Positions 3,201-37,094 of a stretch of DNA of 42,815 nt are shown here, piece after piece (positions within the stretch are counted from its first letter, which is position 1; every line of letters starts with the position of its first letter). Position numbers and translations under genes: made by a program. Source of the DNA: a virus; the IMG/VR virus record IMGVR_UViG_3300007276_000092, positions 1-42,815 of that record. One strand, written 5' to 3'. A model generated the notes under the pieces. It was given only the letters and a program-made list of their open reading frames with translations. It had not been told where the DNA came from and did not search any database.

Positions 3201-3538
3201 TAAGCTTCTGTTGTTACAGTTACTCCTTGTTTAGCGTATGCAATTACAGTTCCACTATCTAACTCAATAGAGGTAAAATTACCATATATAGTTATTCCTT
3301 TAGGAATAGTAAGATCTGTTGCTATTGCCTGAATAGCTCCACCATTGCCTTCTACTATACCAATTTCACATTCGCTTACATCTACTACTGCATCTGCTAA
3401 CGCTGTAATTGCAAAAAATGGACCTGTATGTTTTTTTTGATCATTTATATGAACAGTAGTACCAGGTGTTAATGAGTTATTTACACCATCAGCTGTATCA
3501 CTGTGCCATTTGTCTTGCTCCGTTCTAATTGTTGACAT
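3200..3538 (-). CDS. Small beta-rich virion protein
   Basis: 112 residues with no signal peptide. It begins MSTIRTEQDKWHSD, then mostly short hydrophobic strands separated by turns (PGTTVHIND, GPFFAITALADAVVD, IPKGITIYGNF, SGTVIAYAKQGVTV). PKGITIYGNFTSIEL resembles a beta-structured segment often found in small phage tail or head proteins. It is translationally coupled to both neighbours by one-base overlaps (3200 and 3538). Its position after a fibre-like gene and a coiled-coil gene suggests a virion or fibre accessory component. I do not recognise the family. Confidence 0.5.
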   Translation of the reverse strand: MSTIRTEQDKWHSDTADGVNNSLTPGTTVHINDQKKHTGPFFAITALADAVVDVSECEIGIVEGNGGAIQAIATDLTIPKGITIYGNFTSIELDSGTVIAYAKQGVTVTTEA

Positions 3539-3951
3539 TATTTTATAATTTTTATAATATTAGTTACTTGATCTGCAGTAATATCATCTGGTAAAACATC
3601 TTCAGAAACCATATGTAATTTTAATTCCATATCTTGTTTTAAAGCTTCTGTTACTTTTGCTAATTGCTCTTTTCTAGTTTTTACTATTTCAGAGTTTTCA
3701 TTTTCAATATTTGCAATTTGTTCTTGAGCATTTGCCTCATTTCTATTTGCAATATCATTAATCTTTCTAGCTATTTCAATAAACTCTTCTGAAGGTTTAT
3801 TTAAATCCTCTACATCTTGTAAAGCATCTTTAATAATTAGCATGTTTTTACCTGCTACTAAAGCAAATTTTTTACTTTTTAAATCCTTAACTTCTACTAG
3901 ACCGTTATACAGTCTTGCAAAGTCATCTTTTGTTGCATTAATTTTTGTCAT
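3538..3951 (-). CDS. Coiled-coil protein, possible fibre accessory
   Basis: 137 residues, almost all predicted helix. Lys/Glu-rich heptads run through the middle (IARKINDIANRNEANAQEQ, then IANIENENSEIVKTRKEQL). It ends with a short domain LPDDITADQVTNIIKIIK. No signal peptide or membrane span. It lies 24 nt after the fibre-like gene (3976-5412) and overlaps the next gene by one base. Coiled-coil proteins of this size next to fibres can be assembly chaperones or fibre stalk parts. No specific function can be assigned. Confidence 0.5.
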   Translation of the reverse strand: MTKINATKDDFARLYNGLVEVKDLKSKKFALVAGKNMLIIKDALQDVEDLNKPSEEFIEIARKINDIANRNEANAQEQIANIENENSEIVKTRKEQLAKVTEALKQDMELKLHMVSEDVLPDDITADQVTNIIKIIK

Positions 3952-3975
3952 CTCTATTGTTTTAATTGGTTAATA

Positions 3976-5412
3976 TTAGCTTTTGTTAACTATTAAATAG
4001 TTTATTTTAAATACGTCAGCTGCATCTGTAGCTACATCATCTGTGTTAACTACTACAATTTTACAACTTCCTGCTGTTTTAGTGTGAAAATACACTTGTA
4101 TATTTGCTCCACCTGTTCTACCAGATGCTACACATTCTAAACCTGTAAGTATTACAGAATCAGATTTAATTGTACTATTTGTAAAAGTAAATTCAACTTC
4201 TGCAGCACTTGCTAATACAGCTCCATATAGTGTAATTATACCAGAAGTTGTATTAGAAGTTACAGCAGTAGTTGCACTACCAGTTTGACCAACAGAGGCA
4301 CTACCTGAATGTATAATACCTTCTGCAGCTCCTGTAATAATTAAACTACCTGTATTTACAGTTACGTCTTGTCCTTCAGCTGCAATTGTAACTGCATCTG
4401 TTGCAGTAGCACCTGTATATGTTTTTAATTGAATGTTACCATCAGTACCGCTACCAGATTTACCTGAAGTAATTACCACAGATCCTGCAGTACCACTTCC
4501 TGATGCTGTACCAGCTGTTAAATTTAAATTACCCGATGTACCATCTGCAGACCCACCTGATTCTAAAGATAAAGCCTGACCTGCTGTACTAGACGTTGTA
4601 GCTGTAGGTTTAATTGTAGGTGCAAAAGTGTTACCAAATCTAATACCTCCATTACCTAAGTTAAGTTGATCCGCATTGTGATAATTAGCAGAAGATCCTA
4701 AATACATATTATTACCTGTTACGCGCACACCATTTTGAGCGCCATCAGAACTTAAGTATCCTGTGCCTAAATCAATATCATTGTTATCACAGTCTAAATC
4801 AGCTGCTAATGTTGATAAAGTAGCATCTAATTTTAAAACTCCTGCACTAGATACGTCTAAAGTTAAATTAGTTCCTGCATTAAGAGTAGACCATGCTGGT
4901 ATACCTGTAGTAGAATTATAAACTAATATTTGTCCATTTGTACTACTTGCTGCCGCTGCTATTGAGTCTGCAGCATCTGCATAAAGAATTGCACCTTTTG
5001 CTATTGTAGATAATCCTGTACCTCCGTTTGTAACTCCACATTCTCCTGTAACAGTTCCTGTAAAATCAACTCCAGTTAAAAATCCTGATGTTGCATTATT
5101 ACAAAGACTAAGGTCTATACCTGCTTCTAAAACAGTAAGTACTATGTTATTACTTGTTGTTGCTACAGTTAGCAATCCTGTGTCTCCTGATTTTATTCCT
5201 TTAAAATTCAGTTGATTTTTATTTGTAATGCTTACATATAGTTGTTCTGAACTCACTCCAGAAGTTGCTAATGAAGGCATCATAGTCTCTACTGCAAGTT
5301 TTCTTTTTTTACCTGTAGCTCTATTAGTTACTCTAAAAATGTCATTACTGTTAATGTCAGTTTTAGTAAGGGTTTTATAAGCTATATCAGATTCTCTGTC
5401 GTATTGTGGCAT
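3976..5412 (-). CDS. Tail fibre / appendage-like protein
   Basis: 478 residues. The N-terminus (MPQYDRESDIAYKTLTKTDI) is probably the attachment part. The body is rich in Gly/Thr/Ser/Ala with NGGTGLSTIAKGAILYA, the common phage fibre motif in which repeated GGTG turns join short strands, and repeated blocks such as SSTAGQALSLESGG and GNLNLTAGTASGSGT typical of trimeric beta-helical fibres. The C-terminal 80 residues look like a separate compact beta domain (VEFTFTNSTIKSDSVILTG, ending INYLIVNKS), likely the tip. It lies 9 nt downstream of the 1555-residue gene. I infer host recognition. No enzymatic motif is visible. Confidence 0.65.
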   Translation of the reverse strand: MPQYDRESDIAYKTLTKTDINSNDIFRVTNRATGKKRKLAVETMMPSLATSGVSSEQLYVSITNKNQLNFKGIKSGDTGLLTVATTSNNIVLTVLEAGIDLSLCNNATSGFLTGVDFTGTVTGECGVTNGGTGLSTIAKGAILYADAADSIAAAASSTNGQILVYNSTTGIPAWSTLNAGTNLTLDVSSAGVLKLDATLSTLAADLDCDNNDIDLGTGYLSSDGAQNGVRVTGNNMYLGSSANYHNADQLNLGNGGIRFGNTFAPTIKPTATTSSTAGQALSLESGGSADGTSGNLNLTAGTASGSGTAGSVVITSGKSGSGTDGNIQLKTYTGATATDAVTIAAEGQDVTVNTGSLIITGAAEGIIHSGSASVGQTGSATTAVTSNTTSGIITLYGAVLASAAEVEFTFTNSTIKSDSVILTGLECVASGRTGGANIQVYFHTKTAGSCKIVVVNTDDVATDAADVFKINYLIVNKS

Positions 5413-26532: not shown

Positions 26533-26571
26533 TATATGCAAAGATATAAATAATTTTTTTACATTTCCAAA
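26533..26571 (-). promoter_or_regulatory. Host-type promoter for the late operon
   Basis: On the minus strand TTTG (26571-26568), a 21-nt spacer and TATCTTTG (26546-26539) match the Bacteroidota primary-sigma consensus TTTG-N19-21-TAnnTTTG. Start of transcription is expected near 26533, about 19 nt before the co-chaperonin ATG. It overlaps the end of the SET gene. It could drive the genes from co-chaperonin through terminase. Confidence 0.65.
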
Positions 26572-26912
26572 TTGTAATTGATAAAAAGCTCTTCGCCTGG
26601 TATAATATTGTCAATTGCTGTAAAATATGCTAGGTTTTTGCTAGTGTCTATTTTCCAAACAACATTATGATTATCCGAATGGTTAAAATATGCGCAATAT
26701 CCAGTAGGATGCCATAAAGACTTTTTATTTTTAAGGCTTGGATACGGCATTAAGAAGTTAAGTTTGTACTTACTAAAATTTAAAGGTAGTATATCTCCAA
26801 CAAGGCATTCTTCTATTAATTCGCCTGCTAGAATCTTTACATCAGTATATACGCCGTGGCCGTGCACTGCACTTTCTTGTATATATAATCCTTTATGTTT
26901 GTAGATTTTCAT
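26559..26912 (-). CDS. SET-domain protein (lysine methyltransferase-like)
   Basis: 117 residues, about the minimal size of a SET domain. Motifs in order: GHGVY (18-22; binds AdoMet) with ILAGELIEE (27-35), NHSDNHNV (77-84; the NHS...N AdoMet/pseudoknot motif), and a C-terminal PGEELFINYN (105-114; catalytic Tyr and GEEL). All core motifs are in place and spaced as in small bacterial and viral SET proteins. It should transfer methyl groups from AdoMet to lysines of an unknown protein. Targets could be host chromatin-like proteins, capsid or ribosomal proteins. It is the first minus-strand gene next to the control region. A plus-strand promoter lies inside its 5' end. Confidence 0.75.
   Translation of the reverse strand: MKIYKHKGLYIQESAVHGHGVYTDVKILAGELIEECLVGDILPLNFSKYKLNFLMPYPSLKNKKSLWHPTGYCAYFNHSDNHNVVWKIDTSKNLAYFTAIDNIIPGEELFINYNLEM
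26894..26901 (+). promoter_or_regulatory. Promoter for the 26906-27142 RNA
   Basis: TATGTTTG is an exact fit to the -7 consensus TAnnTTTG on the plus strand, inside the start of the SET gene. A weak -33 (TTTC at 26873-26876, 17-nt spacing) is present. Transcription would start near 26907, just before a large set of hairpins. Confidence 0.5.
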
Positions 26913-27142: not shown

Positions 27143-27466
27143 CTAACGTATTTGCCTAGGGCCATATTACTATTATGTTGCTAGGTATAAATCCCACGTC
27201 TGACCCCTTACTGCTCTTTCGATCCTCAGGGGTGATACTCTTATCTAAGAGTGCCTGTGCTTGTGCAAAGATACATAAACTATTTTTATCTTCCTTGCCC
27301 TCTGTATTTTTTCTTGTAGTTTTTTGAACTAGTGAGTTTGCTTGATTTACTTTTTGCATGTACGCCTGGTCGTTTTTTCTTTGGTGTCTCTAGTCTTGTG
27401 AATGTTGATTGCCTTGCCATCTATTACTTTTTGTTTACAGTTTTTTAGTATTTCTTTAAAAGTCAT
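27060..27466 (-). pseudogene. Decayed HNH endonuclease gene
   Basis: On the minus strand a first frame (27466-27347, MTFKEILKNCKQKVIDGKAI) ends TAA, and a second frame overlaps it in another register (start 27359). The second reads DRKSSKGSDVGFIPSNIIVI, which fits the DR...SKGY..GN..VIS block of small HNH endonucleases (Zn or metal-binding part and following strand). An in-frame TAG at 27154-27156 follows at once, after which the same frame resumes with ANTLEKTLRQRI, the expected RANxLK helix. So the gene carries at least one frameshift and one nonsense codon. The first part (NCKQ ... HKTRDTKEKTTRRTC) resembles a degenerate HNH zinc knuckle. Such genes are free-standing mobile elements in phages. 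It is probably inactive. Confidence 0.5.
27124..27142 (+). terminator. Terminator of the structured RNA
   Basis: CGCTG and CAGCG pair around a 3-nt loop and are followed by six T on the plus strand. It ends the structured RNA that starts near 26906. Confidence 0.75.
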
Positions 27467-27596
27467 TAGGCAAATGTATAAAAAAATAAAACTAAAAAAA
27501 ATTTTTTATGGACTTTTTGTGAGTGTGGTAACCACTTTGATCAATGACCCCTACTTTGTTTCGATTATTAGATAACCCCGTAAATTAATTTATATT

Positions 27597-27833
27597 ATGA
27601 AAATGAATGGATTAAATTTGACTTTAGGCATAGTGTCTGAAGTCATCGCAACAAAGAACGGTAACAACGACTACAAGGTAGTTGTGTTTGAGCCAACAAT
27701 GGTTGAGACTGATAGTGAAGTGACTATCATCGACTTTGAGGCCAAAGTTGTTCCCGTTACGCAAGCTAAAGTGATTGAGAAATCAATTAAGTCAGGGAAG
27801 ATTGTTAAGATGAACGCTGTTCCTCGAAGATAG
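27597..27833 (+). CDS. Small early protein of unknown function
   Basis: 78 residues with a beta-rich pattern (LTLGIVSEVIATKNGNNDYK, then VTIIDFEAKVVPVTQAKVIE) and a basic C-terminal end (IKSGKIVKMNAVPRR). No signal peptide, no Cys. It stands alone between the decayed HNH gene and the structured-RNA zone, has its own terminator (27856-27887), and is GC-richer in codons than its neighbours, which may mean high expression. Isolated, short first genes with a strong terminator are often immediate-early host-takeover proteins. I cannot name a family. Confidence 0.6.
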   Translation: MKMNGLNLTLGIVSEVIATKNGNNDYKVVVFEPTMVETDSEVTIIDFEAKVVPVTQAKVIEKSIKSGKIVKMNAVPRR

Positions 27834-27855
27834 TTCTTCTCTTTCGCTTGCTTAC

Positions 27856-27887
27856 GCACTCTTCGCTAACGCTTAGAGTGCTTTTTT
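27856..27887 (+). terminator. Terminator after the 78-residue gene
   Basis: GCACTCT pairs with AGAGTGC (7 bp, 12-nt loop) and is followed by six T. It separates the small early gene from the structured-RNA zone, so the replication operon must have its own promoter further down. Confidence 0.8.
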
Positions 27888-27922
27888 ATATTGCGTTAAA
27901 CTCAGCGTACACTACGATACAA

Positions 27923-27929
27923 TACTTTG
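27923..27929 (+). promoter_or_regulatory. Weak promoter-like element
   Basis: TACTTTG, one base short of TAnnTTTG, lies just before a perfect 8-bp hairpin (27937-27963). The same 7-mer stands at 27552-27558 before the 78-residue gene. No TTTG at -33 is seen. Low certainty, but it is the best local candidate for a start of the RNA described next. Confidence 0.3.
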
Positions 27930-27934
27930 ATATA

Positions 27935-28013
27935 TGTATTGAGAACTTGAGCTGATCTCAATAGGAATTAGTATGTGTGAGTGTGACAAGTAAGTCTCTC
28001 ACACAGCTTTTTC
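27935..28013 (+). ncRNA. Probable short two-hairpin RNA or leader start
   Basis: Two perfect hairpins follow each other: TATTGAGA/TCTCAATA (27937-27944 with 27956-27963) and TGTGTGAG/CTCACACA (27974-27981 with 27998-28005), the second with an inner GAC/GTC stem and followed by GCTTTTTCC, a weak terminator-like tract. They could make an RNA of about 80 nt, or the protected 5' end of a long leader that continues to the hammerhead. No reading frame. Confidence 0.4.
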
Positions 28014-28015
28014 CA

Positions 28016-28600
28016 CTTTTCATACAACTACACATTACGGGATTATTATAATAATATAACATAACATACAAATAATAACAAGGTTTATGGTGTGAAATTC
28101 ATCAGCAGGCCTCTTGACCTTTCAGCTGTTAAAGTCAGTAATAGATAGAGATTTGTTATTTTATCATGTATCCTGGGGGAGCAAGGCCAGTCGTGGCTAC
28201 TGCTTAATATACCTACGAGAGGTAGTCCTACGGATATATTTATTTTGCGGACAACAAATAAGGGCCATAAGCCAGTCAAACGCGACGGTACCACGGCTAG
28301 ATATAAGATAAAGATAGAGAACATAAATGCATTTATTCCGCAATGTCTTTACTTATATTGTAAATTTATTAGAACAAAGTGGTGCACACTTTTAGATTAT
28401 TCAGGAGTAATCGAAATATTACTAACCAATACCAGAGATGAAAACTGTTCCTGTAAGATATATGCATTAAGCGCTTGATGATGTATGTTTTAAAAACATA
28501 ACTTATGTAACAATAGAAACTAGGTGGAAGATGAGCGTCCATTTGATAAATAGAACGAAGCTTACAGATTGGTATAGTGTACGCATGCAGTACACTATGC
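28016..28600 (+). ncRNA. Hairpin-rich non-coding leader upstream of the hammerhead
   Basis: About 585 nt without a credible gene. Visible stems: TGACcTTT/AAAGTCA (28115-28137), AGCA-GGCCA/TGGCT-TGCT (28180-28204), AATATACC/GG-TATATT (28206-28240), TTATTT/AAATAA (28240-28261), AGCC/GGCT with inner GTC/GAC (28270-28298), AAAGTG/CACTTT (28376-28392), AGTAAT/ATTACT (28406-28423), TATGTTT/AAACATA (28484-28500) and ATAGTGTAC/GTACACTAT (28574-28598). TGCGG in a loop (28246-28250) can pair with CCGCA (28338-28342). An AT-only stretch (about 28041-28080) precedes them. It may be one large folded RNA of unknown class. Known large phage RNAs (GOLLD, ROOL) were considered but could not be confirmed by eye. 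Confidence 0.45.
28574..28598 (+). other. Perfect 9-bp hairpin before the ribozyme
   Basis: ATAGTGTAC (28574-28582) pairs with GTACACTAT (28590-28598) around GCATGCA. One G-T and one G-C pair extend it outward. It is followed by CTTTAT, too weak for a terminator, so it is more likely a structural partner insulating the hammerhead fold. Confidence 0.55.
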
Positions 28601-28606
28601 TTTATC

Positions 28607-28675
28607 TGTTTCAGTTACACTGATGAGTCTTTAATAGACGAAACTATCACACAATAGTCTGTAACATTTAAAACA
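28607..28675 (+). ncRNA. Type I hammerhead ribozyme
   Basis: All core parts are present in order. Stem I 5' arm GTTACA (28614-28619); core CTGATGA (28620-28626); stem II GTCT/AGAC (28627-28630 with 28636-28639, loop TTAAT); core GAA (28640-28642); stem III ACTAT/ATAGT (28643-28647 with 28654-28658, loop CACACA); cleavage nucleotide C at 28659, giving a GTC cleavage triplet; stem I 3' arm TGTAAC (28660-28665). An outer stem I TGTTT/AAACA (28607-28611 with 28671-28675) is separated by an asymmetric internal loop (CA and ATTTA) that can dock with loop II, as in fast natural hammerheads. Stem I is the open stem, hence type I. Cleavage after 28659 leaves a 25-nt leader before the ATG at 28685. Confidence 0.9.
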
Positions 28676-28684
28676 TTATTAGAC

Positions 28685-28906
28685 ATGACAAAGTTAAAAG
28701 ACATTAAGGAGTTTAATATGCTCCAAAGAAACTTAGAACTAACCAAAGCATTGCAAGATGTAGATAGGTTAACAGCAGAAATTGTTGATGCTAAAGAAGA
28801 GAATAACGTTTGGATTAATCAAATTCTAGATATGCAAAATCATCTAACAGAGTTAGAAAAAGAAATAGTAAAATTAAAATCAGAACGTTTAAAATCTAAT
28901 TTATAA
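28685..28906 (+). CDS. Small coiled-coil early protein
   Basis: 73 residues, all helix by pattern, with strong heptads (LELTKALQDVDRLTAEIVDAKEE-like spacing in its middle and LTELEKEIVKLKSERLKSN at its end). It is the first gene after the hammerhead, 25 nt from the cleavage site. The start follows an A-rich, SD-less leader. TAATG couples it to the lipoprotein gene. Function unknown. It could be an oligomerisation or regulator protein. Confidence 0.6.
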   Translation: MTKLKDIKEFNMLQRNLELTKALQDVDRLTAEIVDAKEENNVWINQILDMQNHLTELEKEIVKLKSERLKSNL

Positions 28907-29064
28907 TGAAGTATATTCTATGTATTTGTACTATGGCTCTAGTGAGCTGTGGTACAACACGTAGTCTAGAACAAATACAACTAGATTATGAACTAAATAA
29001 ATTATGGATTGAGTATGAATACAAAGCAGACTCGTTAATCAATAATTACTATGAAAGAAATTAA
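28906..29064 (+). CDS. 52-residue phage lipoprotein
   Basis: Starts ATG at 28906-28908 (TAATG overlap with the upstream gene). Residues 1-14 form a short lipoprotein signal (MKYILCICTMALVS) with a lipobox ending L-V-S-C at Cys15, followed by GTTRSLEQIQ and a charged helix (ELNKLWIEYEYKADSL). It ends 14 nt inside the next gene. Small phage lipoproteins are commonly superinfection-exclusion or lysis (o-spanin-like) factors. Early position, next to replication genes, favours exclusion of other phages. Target membrane (inner or outer) cannot be told. Confidence 0.65.
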   Translation: MKYILCICTMALVSCGTTRSLEQIQLDYELNKLWIEYEYKADSLINNYYERN

Positions 29065-35342: not shown

Positions 35343-36243
35343 GAAACGAGGATTTAAGAGCATTAAAACTGCTGTTAACACTTCACTTACGCATATCAAA
35401 ACTGGTATGTTAGGGCAGCGTAATGTCTTTCCAACAAATTGGAACAGGTTAAATAAGAATTTACTAGGCGGTTTACAGCCAGGCAAAATGTACGTAGTTG
35501 CAGGTCGTCCTGGCGTTGGTAAATCAGCGTTTAGTAACCAACTGATCTTTGACGTATTAGATAAAAACAAAAACAAGAATGTACTTGTATTGTATTGGAG
35601 TTTTGAGATGCCAGGCTATCAGCAGATATTGCGTGCTGGCTCAAAAGGCGCTAACAAACAAGTATTAGAGCTGTTATCAGTAGAAAGAAAATTATCAGAC
35701 GAAGCTTTTAAAGCTTATAGGGATGAAGTTATTAAATATAACAACTACCCTGTGTACTTTAATAATGTGCCACGCTCAATGGAGTTTATTAAAGAAACTA
35801 ACGTAGAAATATGTAATAGTAAACCAGATGCAACAGTTATAAATGTATTTGACCACTCACGTCTTGTGCTTGGCAATGCAGAAACTGAGCTACAACGACT
35901 CAACACTGTATCAAAAGGATGTATGTGGATGCAGTCACGTATGGGCACTATAAACATATTATTATCACAGTTAAACCGTAACATTGAACAAGAACATCGT
36001 GCTAAGAATCAATACCAGCCATTGCTAACAGATTTGTTTGGTGGTGACTCTATTGGTCAGGATGCGCATGTTGTTATGATGTTACAACGCCCTTACGATT
36101 TATATGGTATTACTGAAAAGTATTGCAACGAAGACCCTGAAGGTTTACTTGCATGTCATATTGAAAAGAATCGTGATGGACTATTGGGTATGATACCCTA
36201 TGAAGCAGAAATGTCAACATTTACAATTAACGAACGCACATGA
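35293..36243 (+). CDS. DnaB-like replicative helicase
   Basis: 316 residues, the RecA-fold ATPase part only (the N-terminal primase-binding domain of bacterial DnaB is missing). Walker A GRPGVGKS (71-78) preceded by LLGGLQPGKMYVVAG. The helicase-family Walker B lies in DATVINVFDHSRLVLG. Then ILLSQLNRN (sensor with Gln/Asn) and FGGDSIGQDAHVVMMLQRP, the typical DnaB SIxQxAD-type motif. It likely forms the hexamer at the phage fork. It overlaps both neighbours, so the order loader-helicase-radical SAM is co-translated. Confidence 0.8.
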   Translation: MKMTHNKLPQELHEPFKKRGFKSIKTAVNTSLTHIKTGMLGQRNVFPTNWNRLNKNLLGGLQPGKMYVVAGRPGVGKSAFSNQLIFDVLDKNKNKNVLVLYWSFEMPGYQQILRAGSKGANKQVLELLSVERKLSDEAFKAYRDEVIKYNNYPVYFNNVPRSMEFIKETNVEICNSKPDATVINVFDHSRLVLGNAETELQRLNTVSKGCMWMQSRMGTINILLSQLNRNIEQEHRAKNQYQPLLTDLFGGDSIGQDAHVVMMLQRPYDLYGITEKYCNEDPEGLLACHIEKNRDGLLGMIPYEAEMSTFTINERT

Positions 36244-37094
36244 TTGAAAAAGTAAAACGTAAAAGTTTTACTATTAGACATTCTGGACGATCAACTGACT
36301 TTATATCACCTAGCTTTGGCCACGGTTGTTTATACAACTGTAGCTATTGCTACATGAAACGACACAAAGACAAAGGTCTTAGCGTTGCTACCAACACTGG
36401 TGATATACTTACACACATTAACAATCATGCTTATTTTACACCTGTAGATAAGCCTAATCAGACTCACGCAGAGTTTACTACTTACGACATTAGTTGTAAT
36501 GAGGATTTTGCATTGCATGCTAAGCATCATGACTGGGAGCGTATCTTTGAATTTTTCAGAGACCATCCTGTTGCTATGGGTAGTTTTGCAACAAAGTATG
36601 TAAACCCTGATCTTACTACGTATAATCCTGAAGGAAAAGTACGTATAAGATTTAGTTTGATGCCACAAAAAATGTCAGATATACATGAGCCGCACACATC
36701 TAAGATTATTGATAGAATAAAAGCTATTGATGCATTTATAGATGCAGGCTATGATGTGCATATCAACTACAGCCCTGTAATATTTTACGAAGGCTGGTTA
36801 GATGACTATGCTGATTTATTTGATATGGTAGATAATTATGTGGACTACAAAAGTCAAGTGCTTGCAGAAGTTATATTTCTTACACATAACTTTAAAAAGC
36901 ATATTGTAAATGTTGGTCGACACCCGCAAACTGAAGTAACGTTATGGCGTCCTGAACTACAGGAGGTAAAGCAATCTCAGTATGGTGGAGAAAATGTTAG
37001 ATATAAACTTGGAGTAAAGGGCAAGTTTATACAGCAGTTTAAAGAACTGCATAATAGTAAAATACCTTGGAACAAAATTAGATATATATTTTAA
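36240..37094 (+). CDS. Radical SAM enzyme, spore-photoproduct-lyase-like
   Basis: 284 residues. A CxxxCxxC cluster, C30, C34, C37 (CLYNCSYC), follows SPSFGHG, the usual start of SPL-type radical SAM enzymes. The aromatic YMKRH follows the cluster. Later come the beta strands of a TIM-barrel half (ISCNEDFALHAK, GSFATKYVNPDL, VRIRFSLMPQK, HINYSPVIFYEGW). The SPL family repairs thymine dimers using AdoMet radicals. Related proteins of phages have no known substrate. It stands between two ATPase genes in the replication operon, so DNA repair or base modification is a plausible job. It overlaps the helicase by 4 nt. Confidence 0.8.
   Translation: MIEKVKRKSFTIRHSGRSTDFISPSFGHGCLYNCSYCYMKRHKDKGLSVATNTGDILTHINNHAYFTPVDKPNQTHAEFTTYDISCNEDFALHAKHHDWERIFEFFRDHPVAMGSFATKYVNPDLTTYNPEGKVRIRFSLMPQKMSDIHEPHTSKIIDRIKAIDAFIDAGYDVHINYSPVIFYEGWLDDYADLFDMVDNYVDYKSQVLAEVIFLTHNFKKHIVNVGRHPQTEVTLWRPELQEVKQSQYGGENVRYKLGVKGKFIQQFKELHNSKIPWNKIRYIF

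Follow-up and report, generated by a model that had tools for sequence, protein, structure and literature searches.

By its sequence, the element at positions 28614..28665 (+ strand) is a real and conserved type I hammerhead ribozyme, situated ahead of the early genes of what is probably an uncultured marine crAss-like phage (all coordinates are those of the window, the whole 42,815-nt stretch of viral DNA analysed here). The hammerhead sequence, its fold and its covariation are established, as is the fact that both the element and its distance from the start codon are conserved, and the ribozyme is very probably active. The account of its function that we favour, and hold to be rather probable, is that of an intact, selectively maintained hammerhead which cuts the early transcript at 28659/28660, leaves a fixed 25-nt leader on the early mRNA and, in a RiboJ-like manner, insulates that mRNA from a reshuffled leader upstream.

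The assignment of the phage draws on its terminase, which is closest to those of gut crAss-like phages (~41% identity to Suoliviridae members), on a major head protein matching a PHROG head family and on a 400-aa protein with a weak match to the crAss tail-ring family; the marine attribution draws on relatedness to marine and flavobacterial phages. At 42.8 kb the window is probably a fragment, since the longest contigs of relatives reach 80-83 kb. Structural genes occupy the minus strand. The plus-strand block encodes DNA polymerase A, a DnaA C-terminal domain protein, helicases and DnaB-like, primase and Sak4-like proteins, a gene content that bears out the placement of the hammerhead ahead of the replication genes made in the first-pass annotation. 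The first gene of the early block (28685..28906, + strand, 73 aa), whose start is conserved in the related loci L003, L004, L005, L007 and L135, matched no PHROG and no known family; compared with its homologues in L004, L005 and L007, it is conserved at both ends and highly variable in the middle (73 to 104 aa). Two further genes of the region are a small SET-domain protein of 117 aa near the divergent region (26559-26912, minus strand; PF00856, E 4.5e-10) and, within the replication block, a spore photoproduct lyase-like radical SAM protein (36240-37094, + strand; PF20903).

Architecture of the hammerhead and its statistical support

Read directly from 5' to 3' on the + strand, the ribozyme comprises the 5' strand of stem I (GUUACA, 28614-28619), the catalytic core CUGAUGA (C3 to A9, 28620..28626), which is invariant in all hammerhead-bearing relatives, the stem II hairpin (GUCU 28627-28630 and AGAC 28636-28639, loop UUAAU), the GAA of G12 A13 A14 (28640-28642), the stem III hairpin (ACUAU 28643-28647 and AUAGU 28654-28658, loop CACACA), C17 (28659) and the 3' strand of stem I (UGUAAC, 28660-28665). 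All nucleotides that define type I are found in place, namely C3 U4 G5 A6 N7 G8 A9, G12 A13 A14, the pair A15.1-U16.1 and H17, here C28659 of a GUC triplet; stems of 6, 4 and 5 bp surround the core, with stem I as the open end. Hammerhead cleavage leaves a 2',3'-cyclic phosphate, here on 28659, and a 5'-OH, here on 28660. With the cut predicted 3' of C17 (28659..28660), the 3' product would begin at U28660 and the processed early mRNA would carry a leader of 25 nt (28660..28684) before the ATG at 28685. Both the complete type I architecture with its GTC triplet, claimed at first pass, and the predicted cut with the 25-nt leader agree with this direct reading, the former also with the covariance model and the covariation described below.

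One structural claim of the first-pass annotation did not survive. An outer stem I (GUUU/AAAC), proposed as a platform for docking with loop II, destabilizes the fold (-6.7 compared to -8.8 kcal/mol) and is paired in 44% of alignment cells, against 97-100% for the core stems, so that energy and conservation together remove it from the element. Among 124 viral hammerheads, an A stands beside stem I on the 5' side in 78% and on the 3' side in 69%, and a loop II of the type UNAAU is enriched, occurring in many of them. Docking, if there is any, would rest on these conserved flanking A residues and loop II; inspection by eye found no conserved Watson-Crick pseudoknot joining loop II to the 3' flank.

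The Rfam Hammerhead_1 model (RF00163) matches the same place with 25.1 bits (E 0.0026 in 1.7 kb), below its gathering score of 34; a scan of the window at the gathering threshold accordingly returned no match. The Rfam gathering threshold is a curation cut-off and no defining feature of the biology. We read the sub-threshold score as a limit of sensitivity of the Rfam model rather than a failure of structure, because a covariance model (R2) built from 10 hammerheads of unrelated phages, none from the phage group of the window, gives the element 64.9 bits (E 1.7e-14 over 365 kb). The next-best match in the window (14.9 bits, E 0.2) lacks a full core, and there is thus no second hammerhead in it. 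A strict descriptor (stems of at least 6/4/5) never occurred when the window was dinucleotide-shuffled 200 times, and a loose one (stems 3/3/3) occurred 0.015 times per shuffled window.

Folding of the 69-nt segment gives exactly the hammerhead as the minimum-free-energy structure (-8.8 kcal/mol). The local folding energy is no better than that of shuffles, as may be expected from an A-U rich 52-mer, and in an 81-nt segment an alternative fold of similar energy beats the hammerhead. We count this alternative, together with the A-U rich stem III, against the favoured account. An alignment of 13 hammerheads, taken from relatives and from other phages, has 99% of its stem cells paired (97-100% in each of the three core stems). 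Both sides are changed in 51 cells, compared to 14.9 after shuffling, and covariation scores 0.75, where shuffled alignments score 0.20 and slid partners at most 0.15.

Occurrence among related phages and distance to the start codon

As relatives we considered 53 loci that encode related polymerases and were drawn from contigs of viral metagenomes. Matches of the model at 63-78 bits comprise the window and L003, L004, L005, L007, L009, L015-L019, L032, L038 and L039, and the next match among the 53 relatives drops to 15.9 bits; copies are either intact or absent, none degenerate. Loss of the core nucleotides in homologous phages had been named at first pass as a finding that would speak against the ribozyme: instead, the whole core is kept wherever the element is present, changes in the stems are compensated, and the remaining relatives are cleanly without it. 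Several of these, L024, L050 and L012 among them, cover the junction and have the same first gene with no hammerhead ahead of it, from which it follows that the element is not essential. On the polymerase tree the hammerhead occurs in two separate clades, requiring at least two changes. L135 carries a perfect hammerhead that shares stems I and II and has a longer stem III of unrelated sequence; the stem III loops range from 4 to dozens of nt. Over whole contigs, relatives have one or two hammerheads, always at the head of the early genes. In L015 (2983-3374) and the near-identical L016-L019, L038 and L039, three noncoding modules lie between a pair of hammerheads separated by 325 nt; if both cut, a 328-nt RNA would be set free, and ligation of its two ends could circularize it.

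Searches for type II and III hammerheads in the relatives devoid of type I yielded chance-like matches only, and a pistol ribozyme in L030 was the sole other ribozyme at the gathering threshold in hammerhead-free relatives. The model detected no hammerhead in eight named phages of the crAss-like or flavobacterial kind, among them phi14:2, Fpv1 and cr114_1, a set that includes no positive control.

The distance from the predicted cut to the start codon is 25 nt in the window, L004 and L005, and L015 has 23 nt between the cut and its conserved ATG. A census of 124 distinct type I hammerheads from 87 viral loci gives a mode of 20-27 nt and a median of 26 for the distance to the next start codon; 60% of these hammerheads, compared to 18% of random positions, fall within 10-45 nt, a statistic built on a simple ORF caller and on phage genomes whose short intergenic gaps also keep spacings short. 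Bacterial contigs repeat the spacing (median 25.5 nt). A ribosome needs about 20-27 nt upstream of the AUG, and we infer that the spacing is tied to this need.

The upstream side is variable. Of the 124 viral hammerheads, 64 have an upstream stop codon situated between -30 and +12 relative to the core, and in 17 the upstream gene terminates on the UGA inside CUGAUGA itself; as upstream neighbour, most other phages have a protein gene, its stop codon in contact with the core or close by. Upstream of the hammerhead stand leader module D in the window and L004, other sequence in L005 and L007, a small ORF in L135 and module A in L009. Within the window clade, by contrast, the block of hammerhead, leader and gene start remains unbroken, and similarity sets in at the hammerhead's 5' edge. 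Because the upstream neighbour varies and the downstream spacing is constant, definition of the mRNA 5' end is favoured over release of an upstream RNA. Some phages carry chains of hammerheads; one 51-kb viral contig (L071, G030:C1:4440-8727) contains nine type I hammerheads in 4.3 kb, those examined lying between small co-directional genes.

The modular leader RNA

The region preceding the hammerhead begins with a conserved stretch (27876..28066, + strand) in which a hairpin GTGTGAG..CTCACAC with a T run is followed by an AT-rich putative promoter region; it is 95-98% identical in L004, L005, L007 and L135 and 80% in L030. The hairpin, in full GTGTGAG..GAC AAGTAA GTC..CTCACAC with T-rich sequence, is found at 27950-28010 of the window and again at 2505-2545 of the distant L030, and may be a terminator or an operator. 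From there to the hammerhead, positions 28072-28607 are composed of modules with sharp borders, end-closing helices and 79-100% identity between phages, in which their order differs. Module A (28072..28164, + strand), closed by AAUAACAA..UUGUUAUU, recurs at 86-95% identity in L005, L009 and L026 in other surroundings, and in L175 too. Module B (28166..28236, + strand), a three-way-junction fold closed by GUAUCC..GGAUAU (fold z -2.74), is 100% identical to L015 3969-4039, at another place in that locus, and 94% identical to L012. Module C (28237..28362, + strand) is common to L004, L032, L048 and L024 at ~80-90% identity with frame-breaking indels. Module or modules D (28364..28607, + strand), shared with L004, L135, L035 and L032 at 79-93% identity, end in a hairpin before the hammerhead. 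This strong, terminator-like hairpin with a U-rich tail (28564..28610, + strand; ACAGAU-UAUAGUGUAC..GUACACUAU-AUCUGU) constitutes the 3' end of the upstream modules, folds with z -5.65 and is conserved in L004 and L135.

Exchange of modules involves L005, L009, L012, L015, L024, L026, L029, L032, L035, L048 and L175, phages whose polymerases are ~75-80% identical. Other module families recur in relatives, among them F9 in nine loci and L175 and F13 in seven loci. Module F9, a conserved RNA-like stretch of ~62 nt with AUCUCG..CGAGAU and near-invariant loops, occurs in L012, L013, L015, L020, L024, L029, L048, L049, L050 and L175, sometimes adjoining module B or C. The 600 nt upstream of the hammerhead fold better than shuffles (z -2.57), and covariation inside the modules is modest owing to the close similarity of the copies; for the single modules, structured RNA is thus well suggested, short of proof. 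The leader modules (28072-28607) have no Rfam match. Weak Rfam matches to AdoCbl-II (at 28088, E 1.4) and SNORD97 (E 0.76) are taken as chance, no covariance model for GOLLD or ROOL matched in 27300-29000 at E up to 5, the window as a whole gave no match for a pistol ribozyme or GOLLD, and there are no tRNAs near the leader. The indels that distinguish the window from L004 have lengths not divisible by three, and the leader is hence taken as noncoding.

At the site of the hammerhead and leader in the window, L030, the sister of the window clade, has at 3428-4177 a pistol ribozyme (74.7 bits) and then a GOLLD RNA (192.7 bits); the pistol starts where a small gene has its stop codon. Among 21 relatives, neither pistol nor GOLLD occurs outside L030, whose locus is possibly a ribozyme-processed GOLLD. 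Tentatively, and with less than even confidence, the early leader may be viewed as a cassette array of several unreported structured RNA families, 60-140 nt in size with end helices of their own, which are exchanged together with small genes, hammerhead and pistol serving as separators that would set the RNAs free and shield the early mRNA from the reshuffling.

Functional readings and known systems

In the mechanism we propose, the hammerhead would cut the early transcript co-transcriptionally between 28659 and 28660, with the effect that every early mRNA would receive the same 25-nt leader with a 5'-OH, regardless of the preceding sequence, and the detached leader of exchangeable structured modules would end in a 2',3'-cyclic phosphate. 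The downstream gene would thus be uncoupled from a constantly reshuffled leader, as with the synthetic RiboJ. The benefit may consist in a uniform, unstructured landing site for ribosomes and perhaps in escape from 5'-phosphate-dependent decay. Cleavage, its benefit and any regulatory role of the hammerhead are inferences.

Alternatively, cleavage could serve the 5' product, a structured leader ncRNA of modules A-D being freed as a decoy in trans, a scaffold or a GOLLD/ROOL-like cage. The conserved and well-folding modules (z -2.57 over the upstream 600 nt), the paired hammerheads bracketing the 328-nt noncoding stretch of L015 and its kin, and the pistol on the 5' side of GOLLD at the same site of L030 all speak for such a release. 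The hammerhead is abutted, however, by an ORF and no ncRNA in L135 (a small ORF) and L032, and by a protein gene in most other phages, making this reading unlikely. A regulated switch, whereby folding would respond to ribosomes at the start codon, to a protein or to a small molecule, and cleavage would control early expression or read-through of the terminator-like hairpin, is consistent with the start codon only 25 nt from the predicted cut, the hairpin directly upstream and the competing local fold. The hammerheads have no conserved aptamer-like appendage, though, their stem III loops differ in size (4 to dozens of nt) and those of L009 and L159 fold as plain hammerheads with no competing hairpin; we consider the switch improbable. 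The element could also be a neutral or selfish passenger, a mobile RNA cassette persisting by recombination to no use of the phage, as would fit its patchy presence, its clean absence at a conserved junction and the shuffled region around it; the lack of degenerate copies, the compensated stem changes and the fixed start-codon spacing in unrelated phages leave this reading very improbable. Chance resemblance, for which the score under the Rfam gathering threshold and the unexceptional folding energy might be adduced, has negligible probability and is refuted at the sequence level by the empty shuffles (0/200), the R2 E-value of 1.7e-14 and the covariation.

A phage hammerhead as such is not new; the crAss-like context, the fixed cut-to-start spacing and the cassette array appear to be, and a literature search of incomplete coverage found no paper joining hammerheads with crAss-like phages. 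Within the locus, novelty lies more in the swapped leader RNA array than in the hammerhead. Our study has importance in placing a hammerhead in crAss-like phages and in exposing a leader locus where structured ncRNAs and ribozymes swap as modules. The purpose of phage hammerheads has been open since 2011, and the sharp 20-27 nt spacing makes 5'-end definition and insulation directly testable.

Perreault et al. 2011 described hammerheads of every type from phages and prophages alike, which often lie beside genes and of which some cleaved in vitro and in E. coli, and proposed that clustered copies segment long phage transcripts into gene- or operon-length mRNAs (PMC3088659). The window element resembles those in its core, its three-stem type I structure and its intergenic location in phage DNA near co-directional genes, being on the same strand as the first early gene and 25 nt before it. 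It differs in a 6-bp stem I with no supported outer helix, a mosaic noncoding leader and a sub-threshold Rfam score. Clustering is common, not obligatory, in the Perreault hammerheads; unlike their arrays, the head of the crAss-like early region carries one copy, as in the window, or two, as in L015 and near-identical contigs. Theta (HDV-like) ribozymes, small self-cleaving RNA processors of gut bacteriophages, are a different class, tied to tRNA-based recoding and not to an early mRNA leader (PMC10879173). The phage RNA GOLLD is already known, and it assembles into cages (PMC12286853). The L030 arrangement of pistol (RF02679) and GOLLD (RF02032) is analogous to the window in its site, in the ribozyme beside a large structured ncRNA and in the small gene upstream, whereas ribozyme class and RNA are unrelated. 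A functional analogy is RiboJ, the synthetic hammerhead insulator of Lou et al. 2012 (described in PMC7536230), which is engineered and has an added 23-nt hairpin, absent from the window, that stabilizes ribozyme folding. In both cases a hammerhead in the 5' UTR sets, or in the window would set, one fixed mRNA 5' end whatever lies upstream, and the mosaic leader together with the constant spacing suggests that the phage element could work like its engineered counterpart.
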